A stretch of 31,536 nucleotides of DNA from positions 1-31,536 of the IMG/VR virus record IMGVR_UViG_3300020205_000283, one strand, 5' to 3'. This stretch comes from a virus. A program made the position numbers and the translations under genes. The stretch's first letter is position 1, and each line of letters starts with the position of its first letter. Shown here piece by piece: positions 706 to 22,000 of this stretch. Under the pieces are notes generated by a model. That model had not been told where the DNA came from. It saw nothing but the letters and a program-made list of their open reading frames with translations, and searched no databases.

Positions 706-718
706 GTTATATTATTCC

Positions 719-1540: not shown

Positions 1541-1555
1541 TTTCTTTTATTCCTT

Positions 1556-3217
1556 TTATGCTAGGTAAGTAGTGTTGAGTACTGTTGCTGATACCCTAGC
1601 TTGTAAGGTAGTAGTTTCACTAGTTGGCCTCGCTCTAATTCTATATTCAGATGTAGTAACACCTGGCTCTTCTGTTGGCTGGATTACATATTGTCCTTCA
1701 AATGTTGCTATAGGAGCTGTACCTGTATAAGTAATTCCATACACTGTAAGATGTATGCTGTTTACATCATTAATTGCTGCTATGATTTCACATGTTTGAA
1801 CTTCGTATGCAGCATCAATAGTTTCAATAAGCACAAACAGTTTAATTGCACGAATCCGATTGTTGGTTCCTGTAGTATAAATTACAGTAAATTCACCTGG
1901 AGGAATTGAAATAAGAGGGCCGCCCGCGCCAGGGTAAGCAGTAGTTTGCTCTGTTCCATCTTGGAATATAATTTTGTTTCTGATACCTAATGTACTGCTA
2001 CCTTGGAGTATAACATCTCCATAAAATGCTGTACCGCTCATTTCTATTGTGTTTGTCAATGTGTCAACAGCAGTACCTGTGGGCGGGAATGCTTGCGACA
2101 TATCTCCAAGCTGTCCCATTTTAATGGATGCACGGTAAGGCGACCATTCACCGCCAGCAATTAGTTCAATTCTCCCTTGACTAGTGTATCCTAGCCCGTC
2201 GACAAAATCTCCTAAATTATTTGCAATGATACTTATTTTATTTGCACGGGGTACTTGTACTCCTATATTGTCTGTATTAGGGTCAGCTGGGCCTGTAATT
2301 TTAATATAAGACTCAAAATCAAAGTTACTAAGACTTATACTATGTGTGCCAATTCTTGATATCAATTGATCCTGAGTGCCAGTTGATCCCAATATCATTG
2401 TTGGGGCTATAAGTGAGTTGCCGTTATTTGTAGCATTTGTAAACTGCCATTTTTGTTCCAGATCAGTGTCATATTTTGTATAAATGTCTACACTAAGCTC
2501 TTTAATATCAATTTCGCTGCCACCTCGACCATCGCCATTTGATCCATAATTATAGATATAAATTGGCTTTTTATCAACGGTGCTTCGAATGTTTAATCCG
2601 GTGTCAATAACTTCGTTGTTATTACGCTGGAATACTGATGAACTAGCTTCTGTAGTATAAACTCGGCTTACTATGCCTGCAAATCCTACAACGTCAGTTG
2701 TGTTTAATGTTTGGTCAAATTGATTAACACTAACAATGCCGCCGGCATCAATTTCTAAACCACTGCCAATTTTAATGCCACCTAATACACTACTTGTTGC
2801 CTTAGGCAAAGTGTAAGCACCGGAATCTGCGCTTAGTACACCGTTAGCATCAATACTTAATCTTGCACCAACTTTAATTCCACCTAAAATTGTTTGACTT
2901 GCCTTTGGCAGTTCAGAAAAATTAGCAGTGACCACACCATCTTCATCGATACTAAGGCCTGTTCCTATGCGTATTCCGCCAATTTCGTCTGCCGTTGCTG
3001 GCTTAGTTGTTACAAGAACCTCGCCCGTTGGGCTACTGACAATTATTCCCTTTCCAGCTAAAACTTTAGAAACAAGGCCTAACGGTGCGCCAGTTTCACC
3101 TCCCAAAGCGTTATATAGTTCTGTAAAATTACTGTTTATTGCTTGGGCGCCGGCTCTTAGCGAATCGCCTGTTGCGTCATTCGCCGTAATACCCGCATAA
3201 ATTACTTTTTTTGCCAT
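1556..3217 (-). CDS. Tail-fibre-like structural protein with three LGGIKxG repeats
   Basis: A 553-residue protein starting MAKKVIYAGITANDATGDSL and then INSNFTELYNALGG, an N-terminus typical of fibre and neck-type proteins in T4-like marine phages. Residues about 73-165 hold three tandem copies of a ~30-residue unit with the core (I/L)GGI(K/R)(V/I)G..L.ID..G(V/I)(V/L)S, a beta-repeat found in many phage fibres. A central beta-rich part (about residues 170-440) contains a KIIFQDGTEQTTAY segment common before fibre heads. The last ~100 residues are a domain shared with the next gene (719-1540). A ribosome site CAGGAAT precedes the ATG, only 3 bases after the giant upstream gene, so the two are surely co-transcribed. 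I infer a tail-fibre or whisker-like role; whether it binds the host or another fibre segment cannot be told. Confidence 0.7.
   Translation of the reverse strand: MAKKVIYAGITANDATGDSLRAGAQAINSNFTELYNALGGETGAPLGLVSKVLAGKGIIVSSPTGEVLVTTKPATADEIGGIRIGTGLSIDEDGVVTANFSELPKASQTILGGIKVGARLSIDANGVLSADSGAYTLPKATSSVLGGIKIGSGLEIDAGGIVSVNQFDQTLNTTDVVGFAGIVSRVYTTEASSSVFQRNNNEVIDTGLNIRSTVDKKPIYIYNYGSNGDGRGGSEIDIKELSVDIYTKYDTDLEQKWQFTNATNNGNSLIAPTMILGSTGTQDQLISRIGTHSISLSNFDFESYIKITGPADPNTDNIGVQVPRANKISIIANNLGDFVDGLGYTSQGRIELIAGGEWSPYRASIKMGQLGDMSQAFPPTGTAVDTLTNTIEMSGTAFYGDVILQGSSTLGIRNKIIFQDGTEQTTAYPGAGGPLISIPPGEFTVIYTTGTNNRIRAIKLFVLIETIDAAYEVQTCEIIAAINDVNSIHLTVYGITYTGTAPIATFEGQYVIQPTEEPGVTTSEYRIRARPTSETTTLQARVSATVLNTTYLA
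1559..1860 (-). repeat. C-terminal fibre domain, copy 1 (paralogue of 722-1000)
   Basis: The last ~100 codons of the 553-residue protein, starting near RAIKLFVLIE and including VQTCEII, LTVYGIT and APIATFE. It is the partner of the domain that ends the next gene downstream. Confidence 0.65.
2725..3000 (-). repeat. Three tandem LGGIKxG fibre repeats
   Basis: Within the 553-residue protein, three imperfect copies begin near 3000, 2905 and 2806. Each carries GGI(R/K)(I/V)G, then L(S/E)ID, then G(V/I)(V/L)(S/T). They are related at the protein level and diverged at the DNA level, so they are old repeats rather than a recent duplication. Such units form stacked beta structure in phage fibres. Confidence 0.75.
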
Positions 3218-3220
3218 GTT

Positions 3221-6200
3221 TTATTCCTGATCGAATGTTATCGATTCGCTGTCAAACGTTCCTGTGATGCTGTCAAAGCTGGATGGAGTTCCTGCCTTGT
3301 TCTCATATTTACCAATATTCGCATACCAAATGCCCGGAGCAGCTTTTAAGAAACGTGCAATTTTACTGTCATCATCTAGGATATTTGTAGTCGAATCCCA
3401 TGCTGTTCCTGTGCGTTTAACCACGGTTACCCTTGTTCCAAACTTTAACTTGTGTGTTAATTGTAGTTCATTACTAGTACCGTCTACTGTAAATTCTGCA
3501 GCTAGTTCGATATCGCCTTCAGGACTTTCAGGAGCATTATCTACGTTATGCACTTTATAAGGTTTCTTTTTCAAACGAATATTGCCTACAAAGAATGTCC
3601 AGTTGGCGTTATCTGTTTTAAAGATATCAGAGCTAGTGTGGGCAGTTATACAACGGAATGTATAACTTCCAACTTCAACAATGTCGTCAATTTTGTATTC
3701 AACGTTTGAAGTCCACGGAATAGAACTGTAGCCCCCAACAAATACTTCAATGTCTGATGGCCACGATGTTTTTATTCCAGTAGTTGCATTAGTTTCTTCA
3801 TATAGTGCAGGAGCAAATGTTAAAGGAACAATATTAGTACCGTCTGATTTAACTTGTTCTACTATTGATTTTTCAACATAAGGGATCGTTTCGCTTGCGC
3901 CAATGTCTTGTACAAAACCACCTGATTTATGTACACGGCTCACTCCAGTTCCTAGTGTGCCTCGACGTAATTGTCCTAACAAATAAGTTGTAGTAGATCC
4001 TACTATCTTTGGCTCAAGAGTAAAGAATTCGATACGTTCTCCTCGAATTTCAATAATTCCTGGCTTATTATTAGCAATGCTTGGTGTGTCAAAATTACTT
4101 GCATCTTCAACTTCAATGTAGGTATCTAAATACTGTAAGTCTTTAACTAGAACTGTTCGCTTATTAGCGTTCAATCGCTTAAAGTGTGTTCTGTTCAACA
4201 TATCTTTAAACTGCATATAAGAAACACCAGAGTTTAATACACGACTGCCGTAGGTAATAATTGTAAACTCATCTGCTGGATCTGGATAGAACGCTAATTT
4301 AATACTTGAACGATCTTCATTCAATTTAAAGTCAGCACTTGGAGTTAACAGTAATCCGTTTTTAATAACCCATACGTAATTGTCATCTATAACAGATCTG
4401 TCTAGTTGGATTATCCCGCCAGCAACACCCTTGTAGTTATAAAACGCAGGAGTGTCTGGAGTTAATTCAAAGTTTGAAGTAACACTAATGCCAGTACGTT
4501 GTATATCTAAAATGTCGTGTTTATAAGAACTTACTACTTCAATTAAATCAGTTGACGTATAATTTTTATCAAATTGAATCTTACCTGGCAACACTCCTAC
4601 TGGAGGAATATAATTATATTCTTGATCCTGTTTAATACTAATAATTAATTCTTGGTTTAGATATTTTTTACGAACAAGTTGTGTAATTTTTACAGTGATA
4701 CCGCTCAATTCGACAATATAATCTATACTTTGTTTTAATAATACGCCGCCGGCATACACATAAATGTCATTGGCAGACAATGAATATGGAGTGAATTTAA
4801 CCGAGTCAATTACATAATTAACTTTATTACCTGTAATTGTATAATAACTATTATTTGGACCTTTTAAGAATTTATTATTAACTCTTACTAACATATTAGA
4901 TTCAGCAGGTAACTTATCACCTACAACATATTCTAAATTGTAAATGTTAGATCCGGTTCCTTGAATACGTTCAGTTTGTGTAATTGAATACGTTTGTTCT
5001 GTACCACTGACAATCACATAATTAATTATCGCGCCAGCTGATGGTGCGACACTAAAAAATAAACCTAATCTATTTGCACTTTCGTAACTGGCATCAGTTT
5101 TAAATAACGCAGGGGTACCTGGTTCAGCAGGCTGTCCGTTAACATAGACTAAAAAGTTAAAATCTTTTACCCAAGCGGCTTTAGTTACAAATTCAACTTG
5201 TGATCCATCTCCAACAAAGTAATCTAAATCTAAAATATTTGAACCGTTAAATCCAAAGCTGAATATTGAAATTAATTCGCCGATTGCTGGTGCAGAAACA
5301 AATTTAATTAAACTTGCAGCATAATCAATCGTGTAGTCGTCAGTAATATTTTTAATTATTGAAGTTGATGATAGTACATCAGTTAACGAATCTCTTAATC
5401 CATTAGTAAATTTAACAATAACTGCTGTAGGACTATTAGGTTGCTGAGACATTTTAAAATCTGTTTGAACTCCATCAGCAACATAACTGTCAACACGAAT
5501 GTTTGCAGATCCTGTATTTGGTCTGTCATATATCTTAATTGCAACGGCATCAACTACTTGTCCCGGAACAACTTCTTCTGTTGCTGGACTGCTCGTTGGT
5601 GTAACAAATCCGTCACCGTCAACTAAAATATCATCAGCTGCAATACCAGTTGCACTACTTAATGAATTTCCTAAGAACTCTCCGCCGCTTAATGCAGTGT
5701 CGTAATCTTGCTCTTGTGGCAATACTGAACCGTCGCTGCCAGCTCTACGCCATATAAATTGATCACCGTCAAAGACGTCAACTGTTCCAGGAATACTAAA
5801 TGTTTTATAAGTTGGATCTAATACACTGTCCGGAACACCGTTAGAAATTATAGTTTGCATAATAGCAGTATCATTTGCCAGTGGTGGTAAATTATTAAGA
5901 ACTACTGTTGCAGCATTGATTTGTATTTGTTTGGCCGATCTTGCTGATGTATTAGTAACAATATTTGAATTTATTGTTGCAAGACTATTTTCAGAACTAG
6001 TAATCAGCGCCTGTGTTGCAGGAATACTTCCTGGTCCAGGATTTACAAGGATATTAATTGCACTAACTGTTGGAGCATATAACGGATCTCCAGGATCTAA
6101 CCCATCTAATATAATTAGTTGTGCATTTAAGTTTGCTTGTTTAGATACTAGTTGTGCATTATATGTTTCCAAATCTGCTTCTACAGAATTTTTACTATTA

Positions 6201-9200
6201 ACTAGTACATTTCGTTGCGAAACTAAAACTTGATATTCATTTTCTAAAACATTTAACGCCGCTAGTGCTGCACCTGTACTTGTAAAATTAGGATCGTCTA
6301 GACGAACAGGGTTAACATAAGCTGTAATATCAATTATTGCTCCACTAGGAATCGGTTCTTGTAGGAATAGGGTTCCGTTTGGATTGATTGTACAATCCAC
6401 CGGGTCTACTAATGTTTTGGAAAAAATAACTGATGTAGTTGGCTGAATATCTTTAAATAAAATTTGATCTATTTCAACCTGTGTCCCATTAATAATTCTT
6501 TTTACCTTAGTGTTATATGCAAAGGAATCAACAGTCTCGTAAGTTGCTGAACCCGTAGCAGTTGTTAGAGGAATTGGAGTTGCTGCAAATCCTACTGTAA
6601 TTTGATTTGCACAATTAACTTGTCCGTTCAGAGGACTAGTAACAGAAATACTTCCAACTGTCGATGATATATATGTGAAGGTTGTTGGGTTAACAACAGT
6701 GATAGATTTATTTGTGTCAGTATCAAGTGCCGTAGATGTTGCTGTTATGCTTACAGGTTGTGCTGTGGCTAGCCCGTGTTGAACAGAAGTAACCACAGTT
6801 GCCGTTGCCGATAATGTAATAATTAAATCATTAGTAATATCAATTCCACCAAATACTGAACCCAATACTTTAACTTTAGTTCCAGAGGTATAACCAGTTC
6901 CTGGTACAGTAATAGCAATTGTAGTATTAGATGATGTAAAATCTACAATGCCAGTAGTTTTAGTAACAGTAACTCTCATTCCAGAACCAGTGCCTGATTC
7001 TATAAATGTCTCTTGATTAGTGTATGTTTTAGCAATAACAGTAAAACTGCTTCCGGCATCAACTGTTTGAGAATTGTTAACTGTATAAGTCCCAGTTAAT
7101 CCTGAACCAGATGTAAATCCAGTAATTCGTGTATTTTCAAGTACCCCAGTTCCAATAATAACTGAATTTAATCCAACAGTTCCTACATTAATTGCTGTGA
7201 TTGTTAAAATTGTTCCGCTGATCGATCCAACAAACACACAAATGTCGTCGGCCGCTTTTCCAGTTAGTGATAAATTAACTGAACGAGATACTGATAATAC
7301 TGGAATAGTATTTGCGTAGGGTTTTGTTAAAAGATAATAATCAGATGCTGAAGACAGTCCTCCAAACATTTGTCCTTTAAATTTAATCTTTTCTCCAACT
7401 GTTAATCCTGCAATAGTACTAACAGTAATAAGGTTACCAACTGAACTAGTAGATGTTACATTTCCCACTGGACGATAACTAGTAACAATATTATCTATTT
7501 CAACATCTGTAGTATTTGTTAAAGTTAAAATATTACTTCCTGAAACATTTCCAGTTCCTGCAATTTTAGTTACAGTAACAGTTGCCGTTGGCGGAAACAC
7601 ATCGTTCACATTAAAATTATAAATTAATGAGAAACCATCTCCAGTATACGTATCGTTATTTTTACCAACATAATAAACGTTCATTGGCGTGCCAGCTGAA
7701 GGCACATATGGCAGTGTAAATGAATGTGTATTTGCAGCAACTGTTACTACATAGTCATCAAACGAACTGTCAAAACTTGCCCACTTATCTGTATAATAGG
7801 GAACACTGTCCCACCCAGACGAAATATCAAAGTTTAAACCATGAATATTTACGCCGCCGTAATCGATACCTGTCATTAGTTGCGCTAAATCTTTACCAAG
7901 TTCTCCAGATGCTGGATTATAATAATATTGGATACGATCAGCAGCATTTAACATAGACCAGTCTTTAATATATGTAACTGTTACAACATAGCCTTTCTTA
8001 GGTGCTACATCAAATGTAATTTTTCCAGTGTAATTAGTATAACCTTTACTTGTAGATTTAGTTATTTCTAATTTATAAGTTGAACGCAACACTTCTACTT
8101 GCTTTCCTGGTTCACCAAGTAGTACCGTAGTTTTTCCAATACGAACGTCTGGTGCCCACTTTAAAGGAAATTGTAATCGAGATCCTGAAACTACAGTGTT
8201 TCCAGAAAATGTTTCAGTTGCTTGAAGATTAGTAACAAAGTAGTTTTGTGTTACTCGGTCAAATTTTACTTTAATTAAATTACTTCTTACAACGCCGTTT
8301 CCTATTTTTGCAGAAACTCTTGCTGGGGTGCCGTTGGCTATTAGACCGCCGTCAATTATTATTGTTGGAGTACTTAAATATCCTGATCCAGCTGTTAACA
8401 ATACAATACGATTAATTTTTCCGTTAGTAAAAAATGCTCTAGCAGTTGCGCCAGAACCAGTATTACTAATAATACGAACAGTTGGTTCTGCTCGATATCC
8501 TGATCCACCATCAATAATGTCTAAAGATATTATCGAGTATCCTAGATTATCGTACCAATGACGCCATGGATATGATAAAATTTGATTATTGTCGGATTGT
8601 ATTAACCCGTCAACAATGTTTGTTGAAATAGGAATAATTGTTCCATTTTCGTAAACAGAAGGCAAGTCAAAGTCTGTAGTTGATAATTGATTCGTATCTA
8701 GTTTAGAATACGCACTTACATATTCACGAATTTTTGTTCTATATGGTTTGACTTCGTCTATGTAATCTTCAAAATTTTCTAAATTATCACTATTGTATGT
8801 TACTTTTTGTTTTAATTCGCCAACACTATGTTGTGCTTTAACAAAACTTGTTTTAAAGATCCAGTCAATATAATTTTGTTCGCTGTAAGCATATCGAACT
8901 GAGTTGAAGAACAGGTTTAAATAAACTTCTTTCATGTCATCAACAAGGATATTATTTTTAAGAGTTTCTAAAATAATACGTAGTTCAGTTGATGCTGAGT
9001 TATCAAATATTCCCGAATCATACAACGACCCATCAAAGCCAAACTCGCTGTTTGAAAAACGATATAGTTCAGAAATAAACTGAATAGTTCCTTTTTCTTT
9101 ACCTACAACTTTATAACTCTGTGTCCAATCAACACTCGAAGAATCTGCATATTTTTCTAATAACAGCCAAGTTCCTAGTGTTGTGATTCGCACCTTAACG

Positions 9201-12200
9201 GTTTGTCCTATCTTACATTCAAGGCCCTGTAAATCAGAAATAGAAGAAACAGAATGAACAATTGAAGTAAATTGATTATATCCAGTTGCATACCAATCTA
9301 TATAATTCCAATAGTTTCGCACATCGTAAGACTGGCTACGAATACGAGACCACACTTGTGTAGACGGCTCGTAAGCATAGATGCTCCAGTTTCCATTTGC
9401 AACTGAATCTTGATGGACTAAAACACTATAATTTCTTAATGTTACCGATGTATCTGATGTATATCCGTATCCTTCTGATATAATATCTGCGCCGGTAATT
9501 TGTCCTTTTATATCAATAACAGTACGTACTATTGCTCCCGTGCCCGAACCAGTAATTGTAAAATACGGAGCAATTACATAGCCACGTCCTCGATTAAGAA
9601 TATTAATTCCTGTAATTCGGCCGTTAGTAATAATAGGAGTAAACTGAGGCTTTTCGTAATTTCCAATATTTGAAAATCTCAACTCTGCTTCAGAATCGAT
9701 TGTCGAATCGTACAATCCAGTTATAGTACTTGGTTCAGTTTCGTACAATTCAAGTTTAGAAATATCCGAATTCTCAACGACTAATTCTTTAACTAATGCA
9801 GTATTAACGTGTTCAATAAATTGTTTTAGTGCCTCAAAACGATTAATAAACATTCCCTGACGTGGACGATTTTCTACTCCGTATTTTAATTTAGGAGGTA
9901 ATAACGGATCAGGAACTAATCGACCCTGCGTATCTTTTCCGCACAAACTATCAAACCACTTTTGTTCAATTGCTGACGGTATTGTAGTTTCTGCATTATT
10001 GTTAATAATTTTCCACTGACTATGAATATTTTTGTCTGTCTTAGGACTTGTCCAATATTCGATGCTTAACACTATATCTTTATCTTGCAATAAAGGTTGT
10101 ACATTAACAAGACTAAACGAATTAGAACTAGTTAATGCAATATATTTGTATCCGTATCCTCTTGGATTTTCAATCAATGTTGAAACATCACTAGCAGACA
10201 TTGTTCTTCCAAGTACGTTTGGAATTGTTTTTTTATTCTTAACCCAGAAATAATATGTATTTTTAAAACTCTTAGCTATAGTATCGTATTTTCGTACAAG
10301 AGCATATATATTATTTCCGTATAAACTTGTACCACTAACGCCAATAGTAATTCCTTCCTCCGTGTCAGCTAGGCTATTCCATTTTTCTGGGGTATATTTT
10401 GTTTCAACCCATTCGTAAATATCAATACTTGCTCCTGGAAATATTGTATTCCATGTGCTATTTCGATAAACTAAATCAGTATCGTGACTATCATAGAACT
10501 TGGCAGTTCTTAAATCCCACCATAGTGTTCCAACTTGCGATTTTGTCCAAGCCATACCGTCGTCAACATTTACTGTGCTGTCGCCAACACTATACGTTGC
10601 AGGGTCGTAGAAAGTTTTAAATTTAATTTCTTGTTCTGCTATTCCTGGAATTTTTCCTTGAGTCGAATCGATAATATCTAGATAAGAAATTAACTTATTA
10701 GTAGATTTATTATACAAAAAGGCTCTCTTAATCTTGCTAAGATCCACTCGAACATTTTCTTTTCTGTAGACTTTCCAACTAAGTTTACCAATATCTTTTC
10801 TATATTCGTAAACTTTTCCTGATTTGTATCCCTGGTCTACTGCGTTTGGTGATCCAACTAATATTTGGTTTCTACTTACAGCGAGTCCGGTACTATACCC
10901 TGCAAGATCATCGTCTGTATTTTCTAAACTTTCACTGTAAATCCATTTCGTTGCATACCTATCATAAATGTCAATTCTTCCGTTATCCGCAATGATATCA
11001 TACACTCTTGTTAAATTATTATCAAACGTTGTTGTTTCAAGGTCAAACTTTGTTTTAATTAAATTATCAGATCCTTTATTAAAAATAACTAGTGTTTCAT
11101 AGTCGTTCATAAAAGAAATTTTAGTTCCAAAAAATTGTGCTGTTTCTGGTTTAGGATTAAACAGCTCGTGAACTACTTCATAAGACTCATTATTAATAAA
11201 TTGATAAACAAAAACTTTTCCTTGATCTAACTTTATATCATCACTCAACGTAGAAGAAATAGCAATATATTCTCCCGAATTTGAAACTGTCAAACTTGTT
11301 CCAAATCCGTATTCTGTACCAGTTTTCGTTTGATATAGTGTATATGCATTGTTTGTTTTTTTATAAACAAAAACATATCCAGAAGTTAACGTACTAGTAG
11401 ACGGACGATTAACTCCAGGTGTTGAGACTACTAGTGTAGAGTTGTCAGCACTCATGCTCATAGCATAGCCAAAATTACTGTATACAGGCAAAATTGGATG
11501 GCCAAGGGTGTTGTCTAAATTATAGCGCCAGTTGGTCGTTGTGAATTCAATTCTTCCGGATGGTGTGCTATCTGGTTCTGCACTAATAATTATTGAATTT
11601 GTTGCTTGATTTATCTGAGATACATATTGTCCGCTAGTAAATCCAGTTCCTTGCAAATACATGCCTTCTTCAATTCCAGCAGTACTTGTTAACACTACCG
11701 TTGTTCCAAAACTTCCTGTTGGATTGTAAGATGTTGTTACCTCTACAACTGTTTTATAATCTAATCTATAAACATTTCCTGTTTCAGTATTATAACCAGA
11801 TGCAGCTACAAACAAAACGTTATCGCCAAACACTAAGTTAGAACCAAATTTTTCTCCGTTTGCCGGCAATGGACTTAATATAGTTGCAACTAAACTAAAA
11901 ATATTGTTATTGTCTTTTTTGTAAATTGAAACTACACCTTGATGGTCTAACGTTGAATTAACGCCTGTTGAATCAACAGGAATATAGGCAATTGTTTTCC
12001 AATAGATTTTTGCGTTACCTGCTACAGATATAGCAGCAATTGGTCCAACGCTAGCTCCGCCAACAATTGAAGTTACTTTAATGATAAGATTATTAGCAGG
12101 AGCTGCACCACCGAGCGATGTTCCTAAAATTCTTATTGTGTCTCCGGCAGCATATAGATTTCCTGCAGAAACAATCGTTGCTTCGTAATTTGATTTTTTT

Positions 12201-15200
12201 GTTTTGATAGCAAATGTTGCGCCAGTACCAGAACCAATTAAATTTGTTCCCGATAACGTTATAGGATTAGGAAGTGTTTCTGTTCCAGGTTCTTTAGGAT
12301 TAGATGATGATGACGCCGATACCGCAACATATGGATTTGAATCTTGGATAACAATTTTTCCAACAGTATATGTTGTTGAGGAATTCCATACACCAACATA
12401 GTTACTACAAACACTAGATGCTAATGGTGTTCCAGAAGCAAACCAAGTGTTATCTGCAGAGATTGCAATCACATCCCCTGTTAATAAATTTGAAGTGTCC
12501 GAGTAACCAAATGCCGAAGATGTAGAAATAAAAGGAGCAGTTATTGTTTGTCGTTGTAACCATAAAGAAGTTGGACTAGCTTTATCAAAAATAATTGAAT
12601 TGCCTTGATTTGTGGTTACTACGGCAATTGTACTAGAAGGATTTAATAAAATTTGTCTTCCGTAAAATAGTCCAGCTTGCGGTGCTGTATTAATAATTTC
12701 ACTTTTAGAATACACAGCATTATGATACCACACCGTCCAGCGTCCGTCGCCGCCATCGTCGGTCCATAACAATTCGCCATCATTTGTCGGCAATGTCATA
12801 GTTCTATCGGCTACATCAATTGAACTAGATCTTACAGAAATTAAATATCCTAATGTTATTCTTGTTTGTTCAGCAAATATTTTTGGCTGATCTTTTAAAT
12901 CTGCATCAAGTGTTATTACTCGCCCTACAATTGATTGTATTTTGTAAAATCCGTTATAAGCAAAAGCCTGATCTATTGCAAGGTAATTGCCTAGATCAAT
13001 TGTAATATTATCTGTTAATGTTAATATTATCTGATTCTTCTTATATTCTAAATTCGCAACAGTTGCATTAAATCGTGTATATTTGTAAACATTCCATTCT
13101 CTTCCTTCGAATCCAACCCAGGTGTAATCTCCTTCCGTGAAACTTGTCACATCTTGATTAAGTATTTCATTAATATTTTTTAATGTAAGTTTTACATCAC
13201 CTGATCGAACATATCCTGGTGTTCGTAAATATAAATTTTTCTTAGTTGTGAGAGGCCATGGGTTATTATTGTACCCTATAGGTTTTAAATATACATCATT
13301 AGGGGTTTGTCTGTTAATAAAATCTACTATAGAAGTATCTATTTGATTTACAAGTTCAAATCCTTGAGGATTATTTTTTACGTATTGTTCATCTATAACA
13401 AATTCAATATTTTCAAAAGATCCGCTGGCACCGTACTGTCCAACTCGTATTGCCCATTCTTCATAAAATTTTACGCTTTCTTGGCCGTCAGCACTTAGTA
13501 CATCAAATAGTTTATTAAGAACATTCTTTGTTCCCTTTTCAACAATCATTCCTTGATAGAATTTAAATTCGCTTACATCATCCTGAATAATGTTACTTAA
13601 ATATTGTCTCTTTTGATAGCCAATTAAATGTTGTGCAACAGTTTGTTGATTAGCATCAAAATTATCACTATCTAAACTATAAAAATCAGAAAATTGAGAT
13701 GCCTTATACGACCAATTAGGTAGTAACTGAGCCGTAGGCTTACTATCTAGTTTCATCCATTTAGCAGATACAAATAAGTCTTCTCCAGCAATAAAATTCT
13801 TTGCTGTATAATAAAACTGTTTATACTTAACTATGTCGCCGAGTGCATAATCTTTCCACTCTTCCCATTCTTGGATAATTGCTTGGTCGAATATAAATCC
13901 TGGGACGTTAAAGTCGCCGCGCCAATCGCTACTTACATATCCTGAAACTTTAATACGTTCTTGTCTAAAACCGCTAGTTGGGCTATAAATTGTGTCGTTA
14001 AACAAGGTAGTATTTTTTAGTATAACAACTTGTTCTTTTTGCACCAAATAAAATATTGCACCGTATATGCCGTCTTCAACTGGAGTATAACTAACTGCAT
14101 TTTCATTTCTATAGTTGTTTAAGAAACTAGGAGTAATTGGTGTTCCGTCAACTTTAAATATTTCATATCCGTTAAACGGATTTCTTATATCGTCAACTAC
14201 AGATAAAGGAGATACAAAAGTTAAATTGGTTGCAGCTGGGCTTAGACTAATAACACTACTTCCGATGGAACTTAAACCATCTAATCTTACATAGTCGTTG
14301 GAAATAAACACAGATTCAGGTTCTAGTGTATTGATAGCTCTATAATAATCGCCATTATATTTTACAATATCCCCTATGTTGACTGGTTGATTTGCTACCC
14401 AGTCAGTCCACTTATCTTCTCCAGTGCTCCAGTTTTGAGTTGTCCAGAATAAAAATTCTTTTGCACTGGTTTCCCAATTTGTTATAGTTGCAAGTTCTGT
14501 ATTAAAATTGTCAAATATAAATCCTTGGCTTTTTAAATATTCGCCGTAGCCTAATAAGAAATCTACAACTTCTTGAATAGTTTTAAATTTTGTTCCGTAC
14601 GGTGCAACAAGCTCTTCAGTATTATCCCAAGATTGTCTAATATACGCATCTCTTCCCCCGATGATTGGCAAGGAAGGTAACGGAGTATAGTATGCCGCAT
14701 TAAATGTTGTCGTGGTAGTATGTAACGTTTTAACTCGATAGAATCTATTATTAAATGATACAATCTTACCTGACGAATATTGCGAGTCGGCTGTCCAGTT
14801 TGTATAACTTTCTGAGATTCCGCCCACATTGATTGAAATTCCAGTAGTGGTATAATTATAATATTTAAAATAAGGTTGAGTTTTATTGTATCCTTTAATA
14901 CTAAATCCGTCTGATAGTTTTGTAATAATTACACCACTATACGCAATTTTCTTTATAGGACTCGACGAGTTTAAAATAATGTCATAGTCTTCTTGGGGAA
15001 CAAAAACACTACCCGTTGTTAACGGAGTTTTACTATCAAGTAATAATTTAAATTTTTCTTTACTTGTAAAACCACCAATACGATATGACAATCTAATTTG
15101 TAAATTTTTTAAATCATAATTATATTGATCGTAAGATTTTAAATTATCACTTTGTATATAATCAACAATAAAATTAATAATTCCACTAGTTTTAATATTT

Positions 15201-18200
15201 GTTGCACTTGAAAAAATGCTTGGCAACACAATATCTGTTGGTTTAATTCGTAAACCTGTATCTTTATACACAAGTTGTCCTGCTAAATCTCGAATAATTC
15301 TTGATCTATCTAACAACAGTCCAAAAATTTTGGCTGGGGATGTTAGTAATAAAGTAATTAAAATACTGTATGGATAGTGACTACTGCGTCTCCATGCGCT
15401 CTCAACAGGACTAACATCGCCAAATACAAAGTCCCCAGCTGTTGAATTTGTAATTGTTCCTGTAGCAAGTCCTGATTCTAAAGGGCTAATTAATTCGCCG
15501 TTTTCATTAACTGGCAAATGTCCTTTTAGATACGTACGAACATATTTTTTATTATGTATTGGAGGAGTTCCAGATTTTCTAATAATACCGTTAGCTAGAT
15601 CTTCCCATAAAATTAAATTGTTACTAGTATAAGGAGCCGGACCATACACAGTGGTCCACCACACTGGCTCTTCGCTAAAACCTAACATTTCCCATGGACA
15701 AATATTAGGACGGTCTGTTCCTAGCATCCAGCGATATATACCTTTCCAGTATCCCGGAAGAGGAGTTACATTGTCTGGAGTTGCCATGTCTCGATAATTG
15801 TAAGTTCTTGAATCTAAACTATCGTAATTTAATTGTTTTGTAAAATCTTGTTCAATTACATTAGCCCAACTATAAAAATGTGTTGATAGTACGTCGTTAA
15901 ATTCAGAAGTAGAATACGGCGTTACTCTGTTATACGTGGGCAAATAATCATTTACATCAAAAATTTCTGTGTCATACGAAATTTTAATATTATTATAAAT
16001 TCTCTTTTCAAGTTCAAGAATTAAATCGTCTCTAAAATCTCCATAGGCTAGCACCTGACTACCATCGTGGCCTTGTATCATTAATCTAGGTGTAACTAAA
16101 CTTGTATCAAGATAAATTTTTGGTTCGTACTTTGGCCAAATACCTAATTTTGTAGGTGTAGGCGGTATAAAACATCCGTTTGTATTTTCAAATTCGTAAA
16201 TTGTAACAATGTCATCATTGGCTAGAGTAGCAGATATTACAACAAATCCTTGATCGTTAAATGTATAATCCTTACTGTACAATAGTTGTTCACCATTTAA
16301 GTAAACTAATACGGCAGTGCTTGATAACGAATCTAAATTAAATGTATTTGTTAGCGGGTAAGTTTTAATTCTGTAATCAAATACAGTTAAATCTGACCGA
16401 ATGCTACCAGTAAATGCTGCCATATCACTAAAATAATACGGTGATGTTTTTGGTTTATCTTTTGCAATTTCTTGTAAAATTAAATTAACTTGACGAACTG
16501 TATCTGAATCTACACCTAACTGTTCTGCTACTATAATAAAATTACGTTTAAAGCGAATATAATCGCTTTGACTAGCTTCTATTGCTCGAATAATATTGTT
16601 GTTTTCAGATGTAAGATGATATGCAGATAAGCTCAGTGGGCCGCTATGCTGTACAAAACGTGTTCCGTATGGGGTAATATTTCCTAAATCCCTAATGTTA
16701 CTCGGTCCTGGAAATATTCCATCAAATTCATTTTGAATGTTATCCACTATAGAATTTACATGCGAAGAAATTTCTCCCAAGGTAAAATCTACAATATCAT
16801 CGTTTAATGGATTATTTTGTAACCCAATTGGAGTTTCATAAAATCCGTTTTCATTTATTGGTTGCTGTGCAAATGCTTTGATGGTTAAAATATCGGTTTT
16901 TAAAATATCAGTGGTTAATACAACTTGTTTATAATAACCTTTATTGATAATTGTCCAATATTTTTTATCTAACCTAAAACCATTAACATAGATTTTAACT
17001 TCAAGGTCTTCTAAAGACTCGATGTTGTTAAAAATATCAATGTCAAAATTATTAACTTTATTTGAATCTTTATAAATTCTTACAGCAGGCTGATTATGTA
17101 TAGCCTTTGATGTTTGCCAGCCATTAACAAATGTTTGTTCTCCTGTTACTAATGTTTTTAACAAGTATCCAACATTGATTTGTTTATCTATTACGTAAGA
17201 TACATCCTTGTATTGAAAGGTATCCGAAGCAATGTTGAATTTAAAAAGAATGTCGCCAATGTTATCAATATTTTTATAAGATAAAGAAAACCCTAAATTT
17301 AAATCTGTTGACCCTGATCCGATTTTATATGAAAATAATTTAGTACCGATAAAAGTTGAACCGTCATAGACAGTTTTGTTACCAAAACTATCTTTATTAT
17401 TATCAAATATATCAAACAGTGGGGGCTGGTTTAAACTAGTTTTTTGCTGAGATTTATTCCATGCACTGCCGTCGTACCAGTAAGACAATCCTTGATTAAT
17501 CGAACCGTATTTAACTAATACACAATCAAGGATTTCAGGAATTCTTTGTTCTACTAAATGTATTTGTCTAACTCCATCCAATAAAAGAAAATCAACTTTA
17601 TAAATTTTATTTTTAACGCGGATATCTGTATCTGCAGAGAATAAAATTCGTTGCCCCTGTGCTAACGGAATTCCATCAATATTGTATCCCAGTTGCCCTT
17701 CAACTTTTGAAAACACATCTGTGGTATAAGTATCAATTAAATCAACATCGTCAATTGAGCGTGTTCCAAAATTAAATAATTTTAAGTTTGGCTCAAACTC
17801 GATAATAGGTCTTACAGCTCTAGCTGTTTGGTCAATATTTGCAATTTTTCCATTGTACTTGGCGCTGTCTTCGATTACACTTTTATGAAACCAACGGTTG
17901 TGTCGTGTCCACGGATTTAAATCGTCAGCTTGCCTGTTAATTACTACGTAATCTTTTTTGCCAGAAAAAGAAGTCGAGTCTCCAAACGGCAGCGTATCAA
18001 ATGGATCATTATCAAATAATACTTTTTGTGGAGTTGTATACGGGCTAAGTAATTCTAATCTTGCTTCAGGTATCAAAGAGATAGATTCTCCAACTCCTTC
18101 AACATAATACTGTCCTGTTGTATAACTTTCTGGAATTATTGTTCCTACAAACGAAACCTTCATACCATTGCTTAACTGAGTTCCGTTAGGCAACTTATAT

Positions 18201-19054
18201 GTTTTCTTACCTATTAAATCTGTTGTCAAATCTAAAAATGAATTTTCATCATACGACAATATTTGAAAGACTCCGCCTAGGTCGGCATCAGTTTCACTTA
18301 CATAATAAAGTAAATCTGGAGAATTATAAGGAACTAGGAATTCAATAACACCAGTTTCTACTGCATGATTAGTAACGTTTGAAACGTCATACCTGTCTGC
18401 TGGTCCGGCAACTCTAGTAGTCTTAATAGAAAATGGATTACCGGGGCTATTGATTTCAAAACGATAGGTTTGTCCTCTGTATAATCTAATACTTGGGTTT
18501 TGTGTCAGTCCAGTAGGAAAAAATACATAAGTATTGTTGTCAGCTTCTGCACTAATTTCAACTTTATATGTACTAACAATGTCTTCTTGTGCGCCAGTGA
18601 TTTCAATTACATCTGGGCCGTATGGTAGCCAATAGTATTGCTGGAAATTTACAAATTTATCCCAATCAATGTGCGGATCCCAACTATAAAATTCTTGTTC
18701 GTTTAATCGAGAATGATTCTTTGTGTTGGCGCCAAACACTCCTAACTGATTAATGTAGTCCTGATAATCTTTAAAAAATGTTGTATTATCAAGTGTGTCT
18801 TTAACAATTAAACCAGGTTCTAATTGATAATTTTGTCGTGTGTTACTAGCAGCTTGTAAAAAAATATCATTGCTGGTAGTCGATTTAGAATTTTTTCTTC
18901 CAACATAGCCGTTTATCTTTTTAACAGTACCTGGCTGTATTAACTGATCAACGGTGGCTTGTAAGAATTTTTTATTAGCATCTGTTCTAAAATATTTAGG
19001 CAATAATTCAGCACTAGATGTTTTTCCACCGTTTGGATTTGTGTTATCAGCCAT
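3221..19054 (-). CDS. Giant 5277-residue modular virion protein in the gp7 position
   Basis: An uninterrupted 15.8-kb frame, half of the window. The start at 19054 has GGAG about 9 bases upstream and overlaps the gp6 stop by 8 bases. T4 has the baseplate wedge protein gp7 (about 1030 residues) directly after gp6; this protein holds that place but is about five times longer, and I could not align it to T4 gp7 by eye. Approximate modules: 1-160, a conserved-looking head (aromatic run FQQYYWLPYG); 172-265, a cupredoxin-like fold; several VNG...DY beta modules (about 690-920 and again 4600-5000); W..Y..G carbohydrate-binding-like repeats near 1420, 1548, 1728, 2220 and 5113; an interrupted FG-GAP-like beta-propeller about 2135-2755; GxGY repeats near 3150-3210 and 3510-3570; a Ser/Thr-rich FCCH-like region about 3825-4150; a coiled coil about 4260-4390. 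No enzyme site, signal peptide or membrane helix is evident. Its likely role is a wedge-linked peripheral baseplate or fibre scaffold that may touch host surface glycans (inference). Confidence 0.8.
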   Translation of the reverse strand: MADNTNPNGGKTSSAELLPKYFRTDANKKFLQATVDQLIQPGTVKKINGYVGRKNSKSTTSNDIFLQAASNTRQNYQLEPGLIVKDTLDNTTFFKDYQDYINQLGVFGANTKNHSRLNEQEFYSWDPHIDWDKFVNFQQYYWLPYGPDVIEITGAQEDIVSTYKVEISAEADNNTYVFFPTGLTQNPSIRLYRGQTYRFEINSPGNPFSIKTTRVAGPADRYDVSNVTNHAVETGVIEFLVPYNSPDLLYYVSETDADLGGVFQILSYDENSFLDLTTDLIGKKTYKLPNGTQLSNGMKVSFVGTIIPESYTTGQYYVEGVGESISLIPEARLELLSPYTTPQKVLFDNDPFDTLPFGDSTSFSGKKDYVVINRQADDLNPWTRHNRWFHKSVIEDSAKYNGKIANIDQTARAVRPIIEFEPNLKLFNFGTRSIDDVDLIDTYTTDVFSKVEGQLGYNIDGIPLAQGQRILFSADTDIRVKNKIYKVDFLLLDGVRQIHLVEQRIPEILDCVLVKYGSINQGLSYWYDGSAWNKSQQKTSLNQPPLFDIFDNNKDSFGNKTVYDGSTFIGTKLFSYKIGSGSTDLNLGFSLSYKNIDNIGDILFKFNIASDTFQYKDVSYVIDKQINVGYLLKTLVTGEQTFVNGWQTSKAIHNQPAVRIYKDSNKVNNFDIDIFNNIESLEDLEVKIYVNGFRLDKKYWTIINKGYYKQVVLTTDILKTDILTIKAFAQQPINENGFYETPIGLQNNPLNDDIVDFTLGEISSHVNSIVDNIQNEFDGIFPGPSNIRDLGNITPYGTRFVQHSGPLSLSAYHLTSENNNIIRAIEASQSDYIRFKRNFIIVAEQLGVDSDTVRQVNLILQEIAKDKPKTSPYYFSDMAAFTGSIRSDLTVFDYRIKTYPLTNTFNLDSLSSTAVLVYLNGEQLLYSKDYTFNDQGFVVISATLANDDIVTIYEFENTNGCFIPPTPTKLGIWPKYEPKIYLDTSLVTPRLMIQGHDGSQVLAYGDFRDDLILELEKRIYNNIKISYDTEIFDVNDYLPTYNRVTPYSTSEFNDVLSTHFYSWANVIEQDFTKQLNYDSLDSRTYNYRDMATPDNVTPLPGYWKGIYRWMLGTDRPNICPWEMLGFSEEPVWWTTVYGPAPYTSNNLILWEDLANGIIRKSGTPPIHNKKYVRTYLKGHLPVNENGELISPLESGLATGTITNSTAGDFVFGDVSPVESAWRRSSHYPYSILITLLLTSPAKIFGLLLDRSRIIRDLAGQLVYKDTGLRIKPTDIVLPSIFSSATNIKTSGIINFIVDYIQSDNLKSYDQYNYDLKNLQIRLSYRIGGFTSKEKFKLLLDSKTPLTTGSVFVPQEDYDIILNSSSPIKKIAYSGVIITKLSDGFSIKGYNKTQPYFKYYNYTTTGISINVGGISESYTNWTADSQYSSGKIVSFNNRFYRVKTLHTTTTTFNAAYYTPLPSLPIIGGRDAYIRQSWDNTEELVAPYGTKFKTIQEVVDFLLGYGEYLKSQGFIFDNFNTELATITNWETSAKEFLFWTTQNWSTGEDKWTDWVANQPVNIGDIVKYNGDYYRAINTLEPESVFISNDYVRLDGLSSIGSSVISLSPAATNLTFVSPLSVVDDIRNPFNGYEIFKVDGTPITPSFLNNYRNENAVSYTPVEDGIYGAIFYLVQKEQVVILKNTTLFNDTIYSPTSGFRQERIKVSGYVSSDWRGDFNVPGFIFDQAIIQEWEEWKDYALGDIVKYKQFYYTAKNFIAGEDLFVSAKWMKLDSKPTAQLLPNWSYKASQFSDFYSLDSDNFDANQQTVAQHLIGYQKRQYLSNIIQDDVSEFKFYQGMIVEKGTKNVLNKLFDVLSADGQESVKFYEEWAIRVGQYGASGSFENIEFVIDEQYVKNNPQGFELVNQIDTSIVDFINRQTPNDVYLKPIGYNNNPWPLTTKKNLYLRTPGYVRSGDVKLTLKNINEILNQDVTSFTEGDYTWVGFEGREWNVYKYTRFNATVANLEYKKNQIILTLTDNITIDLGNYLAIDQAFAYNGFYKIQSIVGRVITLDADLKDQPKIFAEQTRITLGYLISVRSSSIDVADRTMTLPTNDGELLWTDDGGDGRWTVWYHNAVYSKSEIINTAPQAGLFYGRQILLNPSSTIAVVTTNQGNSIIFDKASPTSLWLQRQTITAPFISTSSAFGYSDTSNLLTGDVIAISADNTWFASGTPLASSVCSNYVGVWNSSTTYTVGKIVIQDSNPYVAVSASSSSNPKEPGTETLPNPITLSGTNLIGSGTGATFAIKTKKSNYEATIVSAGNLYAAGDTIRILGTSLGGAAPANNLIIKVTSIVGGASVGPIAAISVAGNAKIYWKTIAYIPVDSTGVNSTLDHQGVVSIYKKDNNNIFSLVATILSPLPANGEKFGSNLVFGDNVLFVAASGYNTETGNVYRLDYKTVVEVTTSYNPTGSFGTTVVLTSTAGIEEGMYLQGTGFTSGQYVSQINQATNSIIISAEPDSTPSGRIEFTTTNWRYNLDNTLGHPILPVYSNFGYAMSMSADNSTLVVSTPGVNRPSTSTLTSGYVFVYKKTNNAYTLYQTKTGTEYGFGTSLTVSNSGEYIAISSTLSDDIKLDQGKVFVYQFINNESYEVVHELFNPKPETAQFFGTKISFMNDYETLVIFNKGSDNLIKTKFDLETTTFDNNLTRVYDIIADNGRIDIYDRYATKWIYSESLENTDDDLAGYSTGLAVSRNQILVGSPNAVDQGYKSGKVYEYRKDIGKLSWKVYRKENVRVDLSKIKRAFLYNKSTNKLISYLDIIDSTQGKIPGIAEQEIKFKTFYDPATYSVGDSTVNVDDGMAWTKSQVGTLWWDLRTAKFYDSHDTDLVYRNSTWNTIFPGASIDIYEWVETKYTPEKWNSLADTEEGITIGVSGTSLYGNNIYALVRKYDTIAKSFKNTYYFWVKNKKTIPNVLGRTMSASDVSTLIENPRGYGYKYIALTSSNSFSLVNVQPLLQDKDIVLSIEYWTSPKTDKNIHSQWKIINNNAETTIPSAIEQKWFDSLCGKDTQGRLVPDPLLPPKLKYGVENRPRQGMFINRFEALKQFIEHVNTALVKELVVENSDISKLELYETEPSTITGLYDSTIDSEAELRFSNIGNYEKPQFTPIITNGRITGINILNRGRGYVIAPYFTITGSGTGAIVRTVIDIKGQITGADIISEGYGYTSDTSVTLRNYSVLVHQDSVANGNWSIYAYEPSTQVWSRIRSQSYDVRNYWNYIDWYATGYNQFTSIVHSVSSISDLQGLECKIGQTVKVRITTLGTWLLLEKYADSSSVDWTQSYKVVGKEKGTIQFISELYRFSNSEFGFDGSLYDSGIFDNSASTELRIILETLKNNILVDDMKEVYLNLFFNSVRYAYSEQNYIDWIFKTSFVKAQHSVGELKQKVTYNSDNLENFEDYIDEVKPYRTKIREYVSAYSKLDTNQLSTTDFDLPSVYENGTIIPISTNIVDGLIQSDNNQILSYPWRHWYDNLGYSIISLDIIDGGSGYRAEPTVRIISNTGSGATARAFFTNGKINRIVLLTAGSGYLSTPTIIIDGGLIANGTPARVSAKIGNGVVRSNLIKVKFDRVTQNYFVTNLQATETFSGNTVVSGSRLQFPLKWAPDVRIGKTTVLLGEPGKQVEVLRSTYKLEITKSTSKGYTNYTGKITFDVAPKKGYVVTVTYIKDWSMLNAADRIQYYYNPASGELGKDLAQLMTGIDYGGVNIHGLNFDISSGWDSVPYYTDKWASFDSSFDDYVVTVAANTHSFTLPYVPSAGTPMNVYYVGKNNDTYTGDGFSLIYNFNVNDVFPPTATVTVTKIAGTGNVSGSNILTLTNTTDVEIDNIVTSYRPVGNVTSTSSVGNLITVSTIAGLTVGEKIKFKGQMFGGLSSASDYYLLTKPYANTIPVLSVSRSVNLSLTGKAADDICVFVGSISGTILTITAINVGTVGLNSVIIGTGVLENTRITGFTSGSGLTGTYTVNNSQTVDAGSSFTVIAKTYTNQETFIESGTGSGMRVTVTKTTGIVDFTSSNTTIAITVPGTGYTSGTKVKVLGSVFGGIDITNDLIITLSATATVVTSVQHGLATAQPVSITATSTALDTDTNKSITVVNPTTFTYISSTVGSISVTSPLNGQVNCANQITVGFAATPIPLTTATGSATYETVDSFAYNTKVKRIINGTQVEIDQILFKDIQPTTSVIFSKTLVDPVDCTINPNGTLFLQEPIPSGAIIDITAYVNPVRLDDPNFTSTGAALAALNVLENEYQVLVSQRNVLVNSKNSVEADLETYNAQLVSKQANLNAQLIILDGLDPGDPLYAPTVSAINILVNPGPGSIPATQALITSSENSLATINSNIVTNTSARSAKQIQINAATVVLNNLPPLANDTAIMQTIISNGVPDSVLDPTYKTFSIPGTVDVFDGDQFIWRRAGSDGSVLPQEQDYDTALSGGEFLGNSLSSATGIAADDILVDGDGFVTPTSSPATEEVVPGQVVDAVAIKIYDRPNTGSANIRVDSYVADGVQTDFKMSQQPNSPTAVIVKFTNGLRDSLTDVLSSTSIIKNITDDYTIDYAASLIKFVSAPAIGELISIFSFGFNGSNILDLDYFVGDGSQVEFVTKAAWVKDFNFLVYVNGQPAEPGTPALFKTDASYESANRLGLFFSVAPSAGAIINYVIVSGTEQTYSITQTERIQGTGSNIYNLEYVVGDKLPAESNMLVRVNNKFLKGPNNSYYTITGNKVNYVIDSVKFTPYSLSANDIYVYAGGVLLKQSIDYIVELSGITVKITQLVRKKYLNQELIISIKQDQEYNYIPPVGVLPGKIQFDKNYTSTDLIEVVSSYKHDILDIQRTGISVTSNFELTPDTPAFYNYKGVAGGIIQLDRSVIDDNYVWVIKNGLLLTPSADFKLNEDRSSIKLAFYPDPADEFTIITYGSRVLNSGVSYMQFKDMLNRTHFKRLNANKRTVLVKDLQYLDTYIEVEDASNFDTPSIANNKPGIIEIRGERIEFFTLEPKIVGSTTTYLLGQLRRGTLGTGVSRVHKSGGFVQDIGASETIPYVEKSIVEQVKSDGTNIVPLTFAPALYEETNATTGIKTSWPSDIEVFVGGYSSIPWTSNVEYKIDDIVEVGSYTFRCITAHTSSDIFKTDNANWTFFVGNIRLKKKPYKVHNVDNAPESPEGDIELAAEFTVDGTSNELQLTHKLKFGTRVTVVKRTGTAWDSTTNILDDDSKIARFLKAAPGIWYANIGKYENKAGTPSSFDSITGTFDSESITFDQE
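5870..6275 (-). other. Coiled-coil segment in the giant protein
   Basis: Residues about 4260-4390 form long helices rich in Leu, Val, Asn, Gln and Glu (LNVLENEYQVLVSQRNVL and following), broken once by a Gly/Pro turn containing DPGDPLYAPTVSAI. This contrasts sharply with the beta-rich sequence on both sides and resembles the N-terminal half of the protein encoded at 719-1540. Confidence 0.6.
10790..12650 (-). other. FG-GAP-like beta-propeller segment with inserted modules
   Basis: Residues about 2135-2755 hold several blades of the pattern (F)G..(L/M)..S.D....(V/I)(V/A)(S/G)(T/S)P...G.V(F/Y)VY. Clear ones are NFGYAMSMSADNSTLVVSTP, EYGFGTSLTVSNSGEYIAIS, FFGTKISFMNDYETLVI and GYSTGLAVSRNQILVGSP. 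The pattern is that of integrin-alpha/FG-GAP propellers. Two non-propeller stretches interrupt it, near 12400-12000 and 11720-11500. Confidence 0.6.
18260..18540 (-). other. Cupredoxin-like domain in the giant protein
   Basis: Residues about 172-265 read as a beta-strand series: SIRLYRGQTYRFEI, NPFSIKT, GVIEFLVPYNSPDLLYY, then DLGGVFQI. This matches the strand plan of cupredoxin-like domains that recur in virion proteins of T4-like marine phages. In copper-binding members the region before the last strand carries Cys/His/Met ligands. Here it reads YYVSETDADLGG, with no Cys or His, so it is probably a structural version. Confidence 0.5.
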
Positions 19055-22000
19055 TGTTTGCTCCGTACGAAGAACTTGTTACGTTTTGTTGTGAAGTAGC
19101 AGTTGATTGAACAGTTGTTCCTGCTACAGATTTGATAGACGATGATGTTATGCCAGTAGTAATTTCAATGTCGTCAACGTTGGCGCCATTAACAAATAAC
19201 TCATCGCTTGCTGATTTGATTTCAAAAAGGCTACCAAAGCCAAGGCCGCCTAGTCTTGGAACAATAACAAAACTTGAAATATCAGGAGCTAATTGAGACA
19301 TTACATAAGTTGATAGTTCTGAAAAATAAAATGTATCCCCAAAGTCCCAATTTTCTAAAGCAAAAAATTCTTCAATTGCTGCAATAACACGAGTTTTAAT
19401 ATCATTATCAGATACAACTTGATTTGTATTTTTTATCACTTTAAAACTTGCTTGTATATCAGGGCTAGCAGATGATCCAAAAAGAACTTTATAATTTGCT
19501 GGATGATAGATAATTTCATCGCTTATAGATTTAATTAAATTTAAACTTGACGATACTAAATCATATAATTCCGTTGAACTTGGTGGTAACGGCTTTGTAG
19601 TTGTTGCTCCAGATAACCATTGTCTAAATTTAGTGTCATAACTTTTTGTCAGCAAATACACATCAATAATATTGCTGGCTCCCGGATCAATTCTAGCATC
19701 GTAGTCGGCGTTGTGAATATACTGAAATTTAAGTTTATCACGGCCAATAAAAACTTTATAATCTAAAGTTGGAACATATGGGTCTGCTAACAACTCGTTA
19801 TACTTAACAACTGTATCTGTATCAATAAAGTAAAAATACTGACCTGTTCTTTTTTCATTAAAAGCAACATAATTTTTACTTGCTTTGATTAACACAGTTT
19901 CTAAATTATTATCAAAGTATTGATAGTCTTCTTGACCTTGGCTAATAGAATATTTTTCTTGTACAATGTATTTTTTTTGTAATATGTTAGAAGATGTTTC
20001 CGCTACTAGCGGAGGTTTAATTATATTTAAAAACAACTCTGGATCATCTACAACTCCGTTATTATCAGAGTCTGCAAATGAAACAATTAATTTTTTAGTA
20101 TCAACATATCCATCAATTCCTACAAATTCAGAAACAATATCCCACGATTGATCGTAAGTAAATGCCAGCGTTGAAGTTGGTTGTGTGTTGATGCTCAGTA
20201 CATTAATTAAATCTTTGACCACAGCATTTGATTTGCTATCATAAATTTTATTGCTAGATTCAAAGTAAAATCGAGTTTGTGTATCACTTTCAAAAATGTA
20301 TTGTTGACAGCGTGATGTCACTGTATAGTATTCGTTGTCTGTTGTGAACAATAACAACCAACTGGCATCTTGTCGCAAGTTTGTTTGATCGCCTTGTTTT
20401 CCTAAACTAAAATTATTTTTATTATCTAAATTCAATTCAAATACAATGGTCCATATTTGATTTACAGCATCATATCGCAATCCAAAGGGTTTATTTGCAT
20501 ATATTAAATCTATCATAGTAGTAATAGTACTACTGTCAATTACAGTCCTCCATTTAGGAATAATCTGTGTAATAGATGGAAAAACCCCAGAGCCAGTTAC
20601 ACCTGAAGGAACATTGATATTCAATGTTATCGGTCCAAACTCAGTATCTAATATGCCTGTGCCTGCAGCAGTGCCGTCGTCGACTACGCTAACCACTTCA
20701 GCCCATATGGATAATGCAGCTCCTTCAGATGTGGAGCTACCGTAAACTAAATCGTTATTGCTATTTGTATCAAAATACCAACCAGTTGGTGCTGTAAATC
20801 GAACTAGAGCGCCGGCTTTGAAATATTTTAAATCAGTAGATGTGTAACTACCCACTTTGTATATCGTCGATCCTGTTTTAGCAACTAAGTATCCAGATGA
20901 AAAACCTGTATCGGTTGTAACATTCTGCCAAACTGCATCTAGTCCTGAAACAAAATTAAGGAACTTTTCATAATAAAAATTTCGTAAATCAATATTTTTT
21001 ATAATGTCAAAAATATCATTTACAATAATGCCTTCAATGTCTGTTTTATTTTGATATGAAAATCTAAAAGAATTTTTAAATTCTTCTTTATAAAGAATGC
21101 CATCGTCTGCAAACAATGTTGTAGAACTGTATTTTCCTGTTGGATCTGATAAATCAAAATAACGACTAATTCCGCTGCTAGTTCTGTTTAATGCTTTAAT
21201 TTTTGCGACTTGAGTACTGGCAGAAAGTGGACTAATATTGTAGTCCTCAGCAGTAATCATACGATTTTGTGTATAGTATGTTGCCGGTGCATTTGCTTTA
21301 ATATCATCTGATGACTCTGGACCAGTTGCATTAGACACGCTAGTTGCAAGACTCATAGTAATAGTTAAATTTTCTTGCTGTCCTACATTTGAAATGTAAG
21401 GAAAAGAAATACTAACGTTACGAATATCTTGTGAATTAATTGTATATGTTAGCCCGTTGCTTACTCTATAGTAAGTACGGAAGGATCCTACTGGTAAGTC
21501 TCCAAACGTTCCGTCACTAAATTGTAAACTAATTGCATCGTTAGTTCTAGTAATTACACTGTATATGCTTCTAATACTTTTGTTAAGACTATTGTAGATA
21601 ATGTTGTTTGCTTCAAAATTTGAAACACTAGTCCACGATTCAATTTCATCGCCAGCTGTGTTTAGTTTGTACAACCAGACATCGTTGTTGTTGATGTTTT
21701 GACTATCAATGTCAATAGACTGATTGTTGCTTGGTTGTGTAATTGAAAAAGTTCCTGTATTTAAAGTACCTTGGACAAATCGCATAAAAAATCCAGACCC
21801 TGCAGATCCTTGTCCGCGGCCATCATCTCTAAAAATACAACTTACAGGAGTACCTTGTTTTGGAGATTCTTCATAAACAAACGTGTTGCCTTTAAAAGTT
21901 GTACTAACAACTTCAAAATCCATAGATCGACCTGCAACAACTTTTGTAAAACCAAATACAGGAACACCTGTGGTATTACTTTGAAAAGTATATTGTTCTG

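Follow-up and report, generated by a model that had tools for sequence, protein, structure and literature searches.

The partner of the baseplate wedge protein is usually encoded directly after gp6 or J, as exemplified by T4 gp7 and P2 gpI, and TssG follows TssF. Contractile systems share a conserved wedge, the (gp6)2-gp7 unit (PMC10457771). Each wedge of T4 has a single copy of gp7, which contacts gp6, gp8, gp9, and gp10 and has one domain that swings outward upon infection (PMC3004832). A published core-gene list of T4 relatives includes gp6, gp8, gp25, and gp53, and gp7 is absent from it (PMC2993671). Very large proteins have been detected in virions of some jumbo phages by mass spectrometry, i.e., CBB_236 (21 peptides, 7.72% coverage; PMC5259590) and phAPEC6 gp245 (381.9 kDa; 17 peptides, 7.6% coverage; PMC7247149). 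The latter is encoded next to the baseplate wedge gene gp244, and no function of gp245 is stated in the consulted passages of that report (PMC7247149).

The DNA analyzed in this work (hereafter, the window) is a whole virus record of 31,536 bases, with relatives in IMG/VR. Half of it is occupied by a single open reading frame (positions 3221-19054, minus strand), which runs from ATG to TAA over 5277 codons with no inner stop and encodes a predicted protein of 5277 aa (585.7 kDa, pI 5.0), annotated here, on the basis of the frame, its phrog_10938 matches, and its dN/dS values, as a giant virion structural protein in the gp7 position. An open frame of 5277 codons excludes chance. The start codon is preceded by GGAG, the gene and the end of gp6 overlap by 8 nt, and the next gene begins immediately past the stop codon. 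When its codons were compared with those of a relative that has 5273 aa and 90% identity and is encoded on one contig (L007/L090), dN/dS was 0.04-0.14 in each 500-residue block, and against more distant relatives it stayed well under 1 throughout, with the highest values among long blocks at residues 2001-2500 and 4001-4500. The frame is maintained over its whole length under purifying selection.

The genes preceding the giant on the same strand were identified by PHROG matches as gp53 (26695-26994), gp5 (23038-24510), gp25 (22598-23041), and the baseplate wedge subunit gp6 (19047-22550, minus strand, 1167 aa). Directly after it lies a fibre or connector gene (1556-3217, minus strand), whose 553-aa product has a gp9/gp10-type N-terminus (phrog_677, E 4e-14; PF07880, slightly under cut-off). 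The order is thus gp53-gp5-gp25-gp6-giant-gp9/10-like, with the giant right after gp6 and before the gp9/gp10-type gene, i.e., in the position of T4 gp7. An earlier note on this DNA had described one intact 15.8 kb frame following gp6, without naming its strand, and both the intact frame and its place after gp6 are confirmed. Blast comparison of the giant with the other genes of the window revealed no significant common part. The two genes downstream of it (719-1540 and 1556-3217) have a common C-terminal domain (residues 172-241 and 444-510, respectively; 38% identity, E 5e-7). It is also worth mentioning that gp6 is enlarged (1167 aa versus 660 aa in T4), likewise in other giant-bearing phages, and that the gp6-position gene of Vibrio phage 2.275.O (MG592671, 290902-294765) is annotated with a CBM5/12 module.

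Copies of the T4-type late promoter core ATAAATA are fewer than expected in the window (3 observed versus 18.6 expected), and all three are located on the minus strand: at 22569-22575, 19 nt before gp6, and at 28034-28040 and 29076-29082. One copy lies 24 nt ahead of the first structural gene of the cluster. The gene of the late sigma factor is on the plus strand, past 28 kb. As a scan of the window found no ATAAATA before the giant gene, gp6 and the giant probably share one late transcript.

Pieces of the giant match phrog_10938, "virion structural protein" (hmmscan, E from 6e-27 to 1.6e-112 per piece), and the region matching this family spans residues 11-3503; members of the family have 3100-4600 aa. 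Its relatives occur in, among others, Atu_ph07 (gp180, 4449 aa), PA5oct (gp355, 3857 aa), SCTP-2 (gp140, 3807 aa), CBB (CBB_236, 3340 aa), RaK2 (gp465/ORF070, 3326 aa), and phAPEC6 (gp245); further members are the giants of Phosso (4555 aa) and a Vibrio phage (3771 aa) and, more distantly, those of RAS14 (3138 aa) and XacN1 (3313 aa). A tblastn search matched 97 phage records at about 25-31% identity, each with less than 80% of the first 3000 residues covered, and at least 598 confirmed IMG/VR stretches carry the core motif PWEM[LF]GF. A scan with the Atu_ph07 core retrieved nothing beyond Atu_ph07 itself. End-to-end measurement of nine close relatives gave lengths of 4520-5273 aa. The preceding gene is gp6 in 73 of the 75 family loci with enough upstream DNA. 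An exception is Salicola phage SCTP-2 (MF360958, 231230-234916), in which gp6 and the giant are separated by about 90 kb and the giant is preceded by a different gene of about 9.3 kb. By its sequence relationships, the protein is an exceptionally long representative of a known, widespread, and structurally uncharacterised family. The idea of an isolated oddity is not supported, as many isolated jumbo phages carry members of this large family and a cyanophage has a still longer protein in the corresponding slot. The PA5oct gp355 record also carries an ESI-MS/MS mark. Judging from the mass spectrometry data on relatives, the giant of this phage is a virion-type, presumably structural protein. 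With gp6 just before it and relatives detected in virions, the assertion that a structural protein stands where T4 has gp7 gains support.

Conservation across jumbo phages is confined to two blocks, residues ~1-1960 and 2690-3500/3520, and blastp detects nothing in the jumbo-phage relatives that corresponds to residues 2000-2700 or 3600-5277. All the features described below are encoded on the minus strand. The N-terminal block (residues 1-150; 18605-19054) is conserved out to RAS14 and XacN1, and it is followed by a module common to the C-terminus of the cyanophage gp9-type fibre connector (phrog_677; residues 161-267; 18254-18574). Core block 1 (residues 940-1960; 13175-16237) contains the GT..P...PWEMLGF motif and a KGT stretch; conserved helices with the FY.G.I..KGT pattern (residues 1795-1885; 13400-13672) form a candidate gp7-type wedge core. 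Core block 2 covers residues 2690-3520 (8495-10987) and has no solved relative. Between the core blocks, FG-GAP-type propeller repeats with a CBM-like insert were found (residues ~2090-2750; 10805-12787), absent from the RaK2 and PA5oct proteins according to blastp. Residues 3447-3590 (8285-8716) carry GxGY modules common to cyanophage giants and phrog_460. Residues 3850-4400 (5855-7507) are hypervariable, even among close relatives, and are replaced or missing in most of them, and the C-terminal region (residues 4440-5277; 3224-5737) is conserved within the close group only.

A CBM5/12-like module occurs about five times, at about residues 1419, 1552, 1730, 2223, and 5114. The copy at residues 1419-1449 (14708-14800) was recognized by Pfam above cut-off and by Foldseek, that at 1552-1574 (14333-14401) by Pfam, and those at 1730-1760 (13775-13867) and 5114-5141 (3632-3715; under the Pfam cut-off) are CBM5/12-like. 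The assignment to CBM5/12 rests on the Pfam matches above cut-off together with a chitin-binding-domain fold (Foldseek, 1ed7, TM-score 0.73 by target length). The GxGY module is present in three copies. The description of the protein as many different small beta modules therefore holds in part: in the model, residues ~1360-1780 are rich in beta structure, and the protein has CBM5/12, FG-GAP-propeller, and GxGY modules, whereas the block with the highest conservation (940-1340) is mostly helical or irregular and 2690-3520 is mixed. A few module types do recur.

Confident AlphaFold2 models were obtained for residues 940-1960 (pLDDT 82.7, pTM 0.70; 116 sequences) and 2690-3520 (pLDDT 83.1, pTM 0.56; 111 sequences). 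Foldseek searches of the first model against the PDB gave only CBM5/12 chitin-binding modules and of the second no match, with no gp7 among the matches listed for either; against viral models, the first matched its own family, Atu_ph07 included. A PDB sequence search with residues 1-1667 gave no match, and one with the core profile gave only the CBM of chitinase A1. As far as the models tell, the conserved core of the giant is without a solved relative beyond chitin-binding modules. In neither the sequence searches nor Foldseek did any structurally characterised baseplate protein match the giant closely; such a match is what the earlier note had named as counting against its claim, which therefore stands in this respect.

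The relationship of the giant to gp7 was approached through the KGT stretch, which in the window protein (residues 1830-1853) reads FKFYQGMIVEKGTKNVLNKLFDVL, with the family consensus FY.G.I..KGT. The gene after gp6 bears the KG[TI] stretch of gp7 in T4 itself, P-RSM4, S-RIM44, Kuttervirus (gp219), and Rhizobium phage RHph_I9, and the bridging families matched by T4 gp7 are also matched by Kuttervirus gp219 and the Rhizobium phage protein. The P-RSM4 giant gave a weak match to the T4 gp7 family phrog_964 (E 0.0017, gp7 positions 731-758). When a profile of the other lineages and P2 gpI was placed among 35 segments of the giant, its best placement was the KGT stretch, with a score of 23.5 versus 22.4 for the top of 420 column-shuffled decoys; the gp7-type profile is in register there at an hhalign probability of only 5.7%, below significance. 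The KGT stretch was also the top match of the motif HMM in 40 of the 82 family members giving any match, with E-values above 3, which are not significant. Model confidence is particularly low at the KGT helices, with pLDDT values of about 50-70. Direct hhalign comparison of T4 gp7 with the whole giant gave no match, and segment by segment the probability was at most 3%; hmmscan found no phrog_964 in the giant. Tail_P2_I (PF09684) was not found in it by Pfam either, and since this model also finds nothing in the T4 genome, its silence carries little weight. The P2 gpI relatives from IMG/VR were too similar to each other for a useful profile. The statement that the protein does not look like gp7 was too strong, since it occupies the position of gp7 and its KGT-helix stretch aligns best with the gp7 core, below significance. 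We hold that the giant works in gp7's place and do not class it as a gp7 homologue, homology being unproven.

Giants are also encoded directly after gp6 in cyanophages, i.e., PRSM4_106 of P-RSM4 (6603 aa) and Np050604_093 of S-RIM44 (3274 aa), both annotated merely as "structural protein" and both showing the FY..KG[TI] stretch of T4 gp7. The P-RSM4 order gp25-gp6-giant-gp9, as well as the T4 order 6-7-8-9-10, corresponds to that of the window. Other genes directly after gp6 bear "head closure Hc2" or "head and packaging" labels (L370, 9688-10695; L368, 2096-2983; phrog_460, phrog_3465, and phrog_10938), and these look like mis-annotated wedge proteins.

With moderate confidence, we propose that the giant is the wedge protein in gp7's place in a T4-related phage of the RaK2/PA5oct/Atu_ph07 kind, with a core on gp6 and an outward arm. 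By analogy with T4 gp7, the conserved core (~1-1960 and 2690-3520) would bind the gp6 dimer in each of six wedges, in six putative copies, and the less conserved inserts (the propeller at 2090-2750, the hypervariable 3850-4400, the C-terminal beta modules, and CBM5/12) would project as an arm. This arm may dock the gp9/10-like fibre encoded by the next gene and may itself contact host-surface glycans via CBM5/12 and other modules; once the fibres engage the host, it would relay movement to the gp6 ring and further to the sheath, as T4 gp7. The idea of a baseplate arm or host-contact scaffold is probably correct, given the CBM5/12 and surface modules and the gp9/gp10-type N-terminus of the next gene product. 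The annotated gene order of the window, paralleling those of T4 and P-RSM4, argues for a wedge role; against it stand SCTP-2, which retains the giant though its gp6 is distant, and, for a gp7-type role, the lack of a significant gp7 match by sequence or fold. A broader proposal is more tentative and less likely than not: the "missing" gp7 of both jumbo phages and cyanophages would be a single chain of 3000-6600 residues that has taken over the functions of multiple peripheral wedge proteins of T4 (gp7, gp8, and perhaps gp10/gp11), six copies of which (~3.5 MDa here) would form baseplate arms with a core fold unseen in solved structures.

Alternatively, the giant could be a virion appendage (whisker, sheath decoration, or side fibre), only co-transcribed with gp6 and placed outside the wedge core. 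RaK2-like phages do bear unusual whiskers and tail hairs without assigned genes (PMC5259590, PMC7247149), the giant has CBM and fibre-type modules, and gp7 homology was never significant. This reading is nevertheless unlikely, as the adjacency to gp6 is retained in nearly all the testable loci, cyanophages have a giant in the same slot, it is present in hairless-type relatives too, and there is no other gp7 candidate between gp6 and the gp9/10-like gene here. A plain tail fibre reading was considered as well and set aside.

A polyprotein, cleaved after assembly into several virion proteins, would fit the sharp split into conserved blocks and variable inserts and the low mass spectrometry coverage of relatives (~7.6%), yet low coverage is expected of a very large, few-copy protein, the analysis revealed neither a family of cleavage sites nor a link to a protease, and the core blocks flank the inserts, so that cutting would divide the conserved part; we regard it as improbable. 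Less credible still is a tape measure or tail scaffold protein, suggested by a very long gene in a tail cluster: both models are beta-rich or mixed and do not form a long helical rod, and the protein has glycan-binding modules and lies among wedge genes. The tape measure was set aside on the secondary structure of the two models, in agreement with the earlier note. For a nonfunctional gene or an assembly artefact, extreme length is the sole support, and this explanation, with a practically negligible probability, is refuted by dN/dS of 0.04-0.14 end to end and by intact relatives of 4520-5273 aa on independent contigs.

The existence of the giant, the selection acting on it, and its family are real, the protein is not unique, and its role as the wedge protein in gp7's place is probable rather than demonstrated. 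The occurrence of a giant after gp6 in both cyanophages and jumbo phages provides a concrete candidate for the stand-in of gp7. The family is common, combining glycan-binding and fast-changing modules with a conserved core that has no solved relative; the giant would partly explain the large baseplates that these phages have, and it is likely to be involved in contacting the host.

Compared with T4 gp7 (1032 aa) and P2 gpI/Tail_P2_I, the giant has the same slot after gp6/J and a KG[TI] helix motif that resembles theirs on visual inspection and in where the profile is placed best, whereas it is five times as long as T4 gp7 and shows no significant sequence or fold similarity to these proteins. 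The cyanophage giants (P-RSM4 and S-RIM44; phrog_701 and phrog_4406) have the slot, the gene order, the GxGY modules (E 1.9e-24), and the KGT stretch in common with it; however, a search of some parts of these giants revealed neither core block of the window protein, and homology is shown for modules only. The phrog_10938 giants are homologous over residues ~11-3503 at 25-31% identity, have both core blocks, usually lie right after gp6, and are virion-associated where tested, but they are shorter (~3100-4600 aa), and blastp reveals nothing in them that corresponds to the propeller stretch or to residues 3600-5277. Close to the window protein are its IMG/VR relatives (L006-L165), which differ from it at residues 3850-4400 or lack them in most cases, and otherwise have the same architecture, 4520-5273 aa, and ~55-94% identity over the matched parts.
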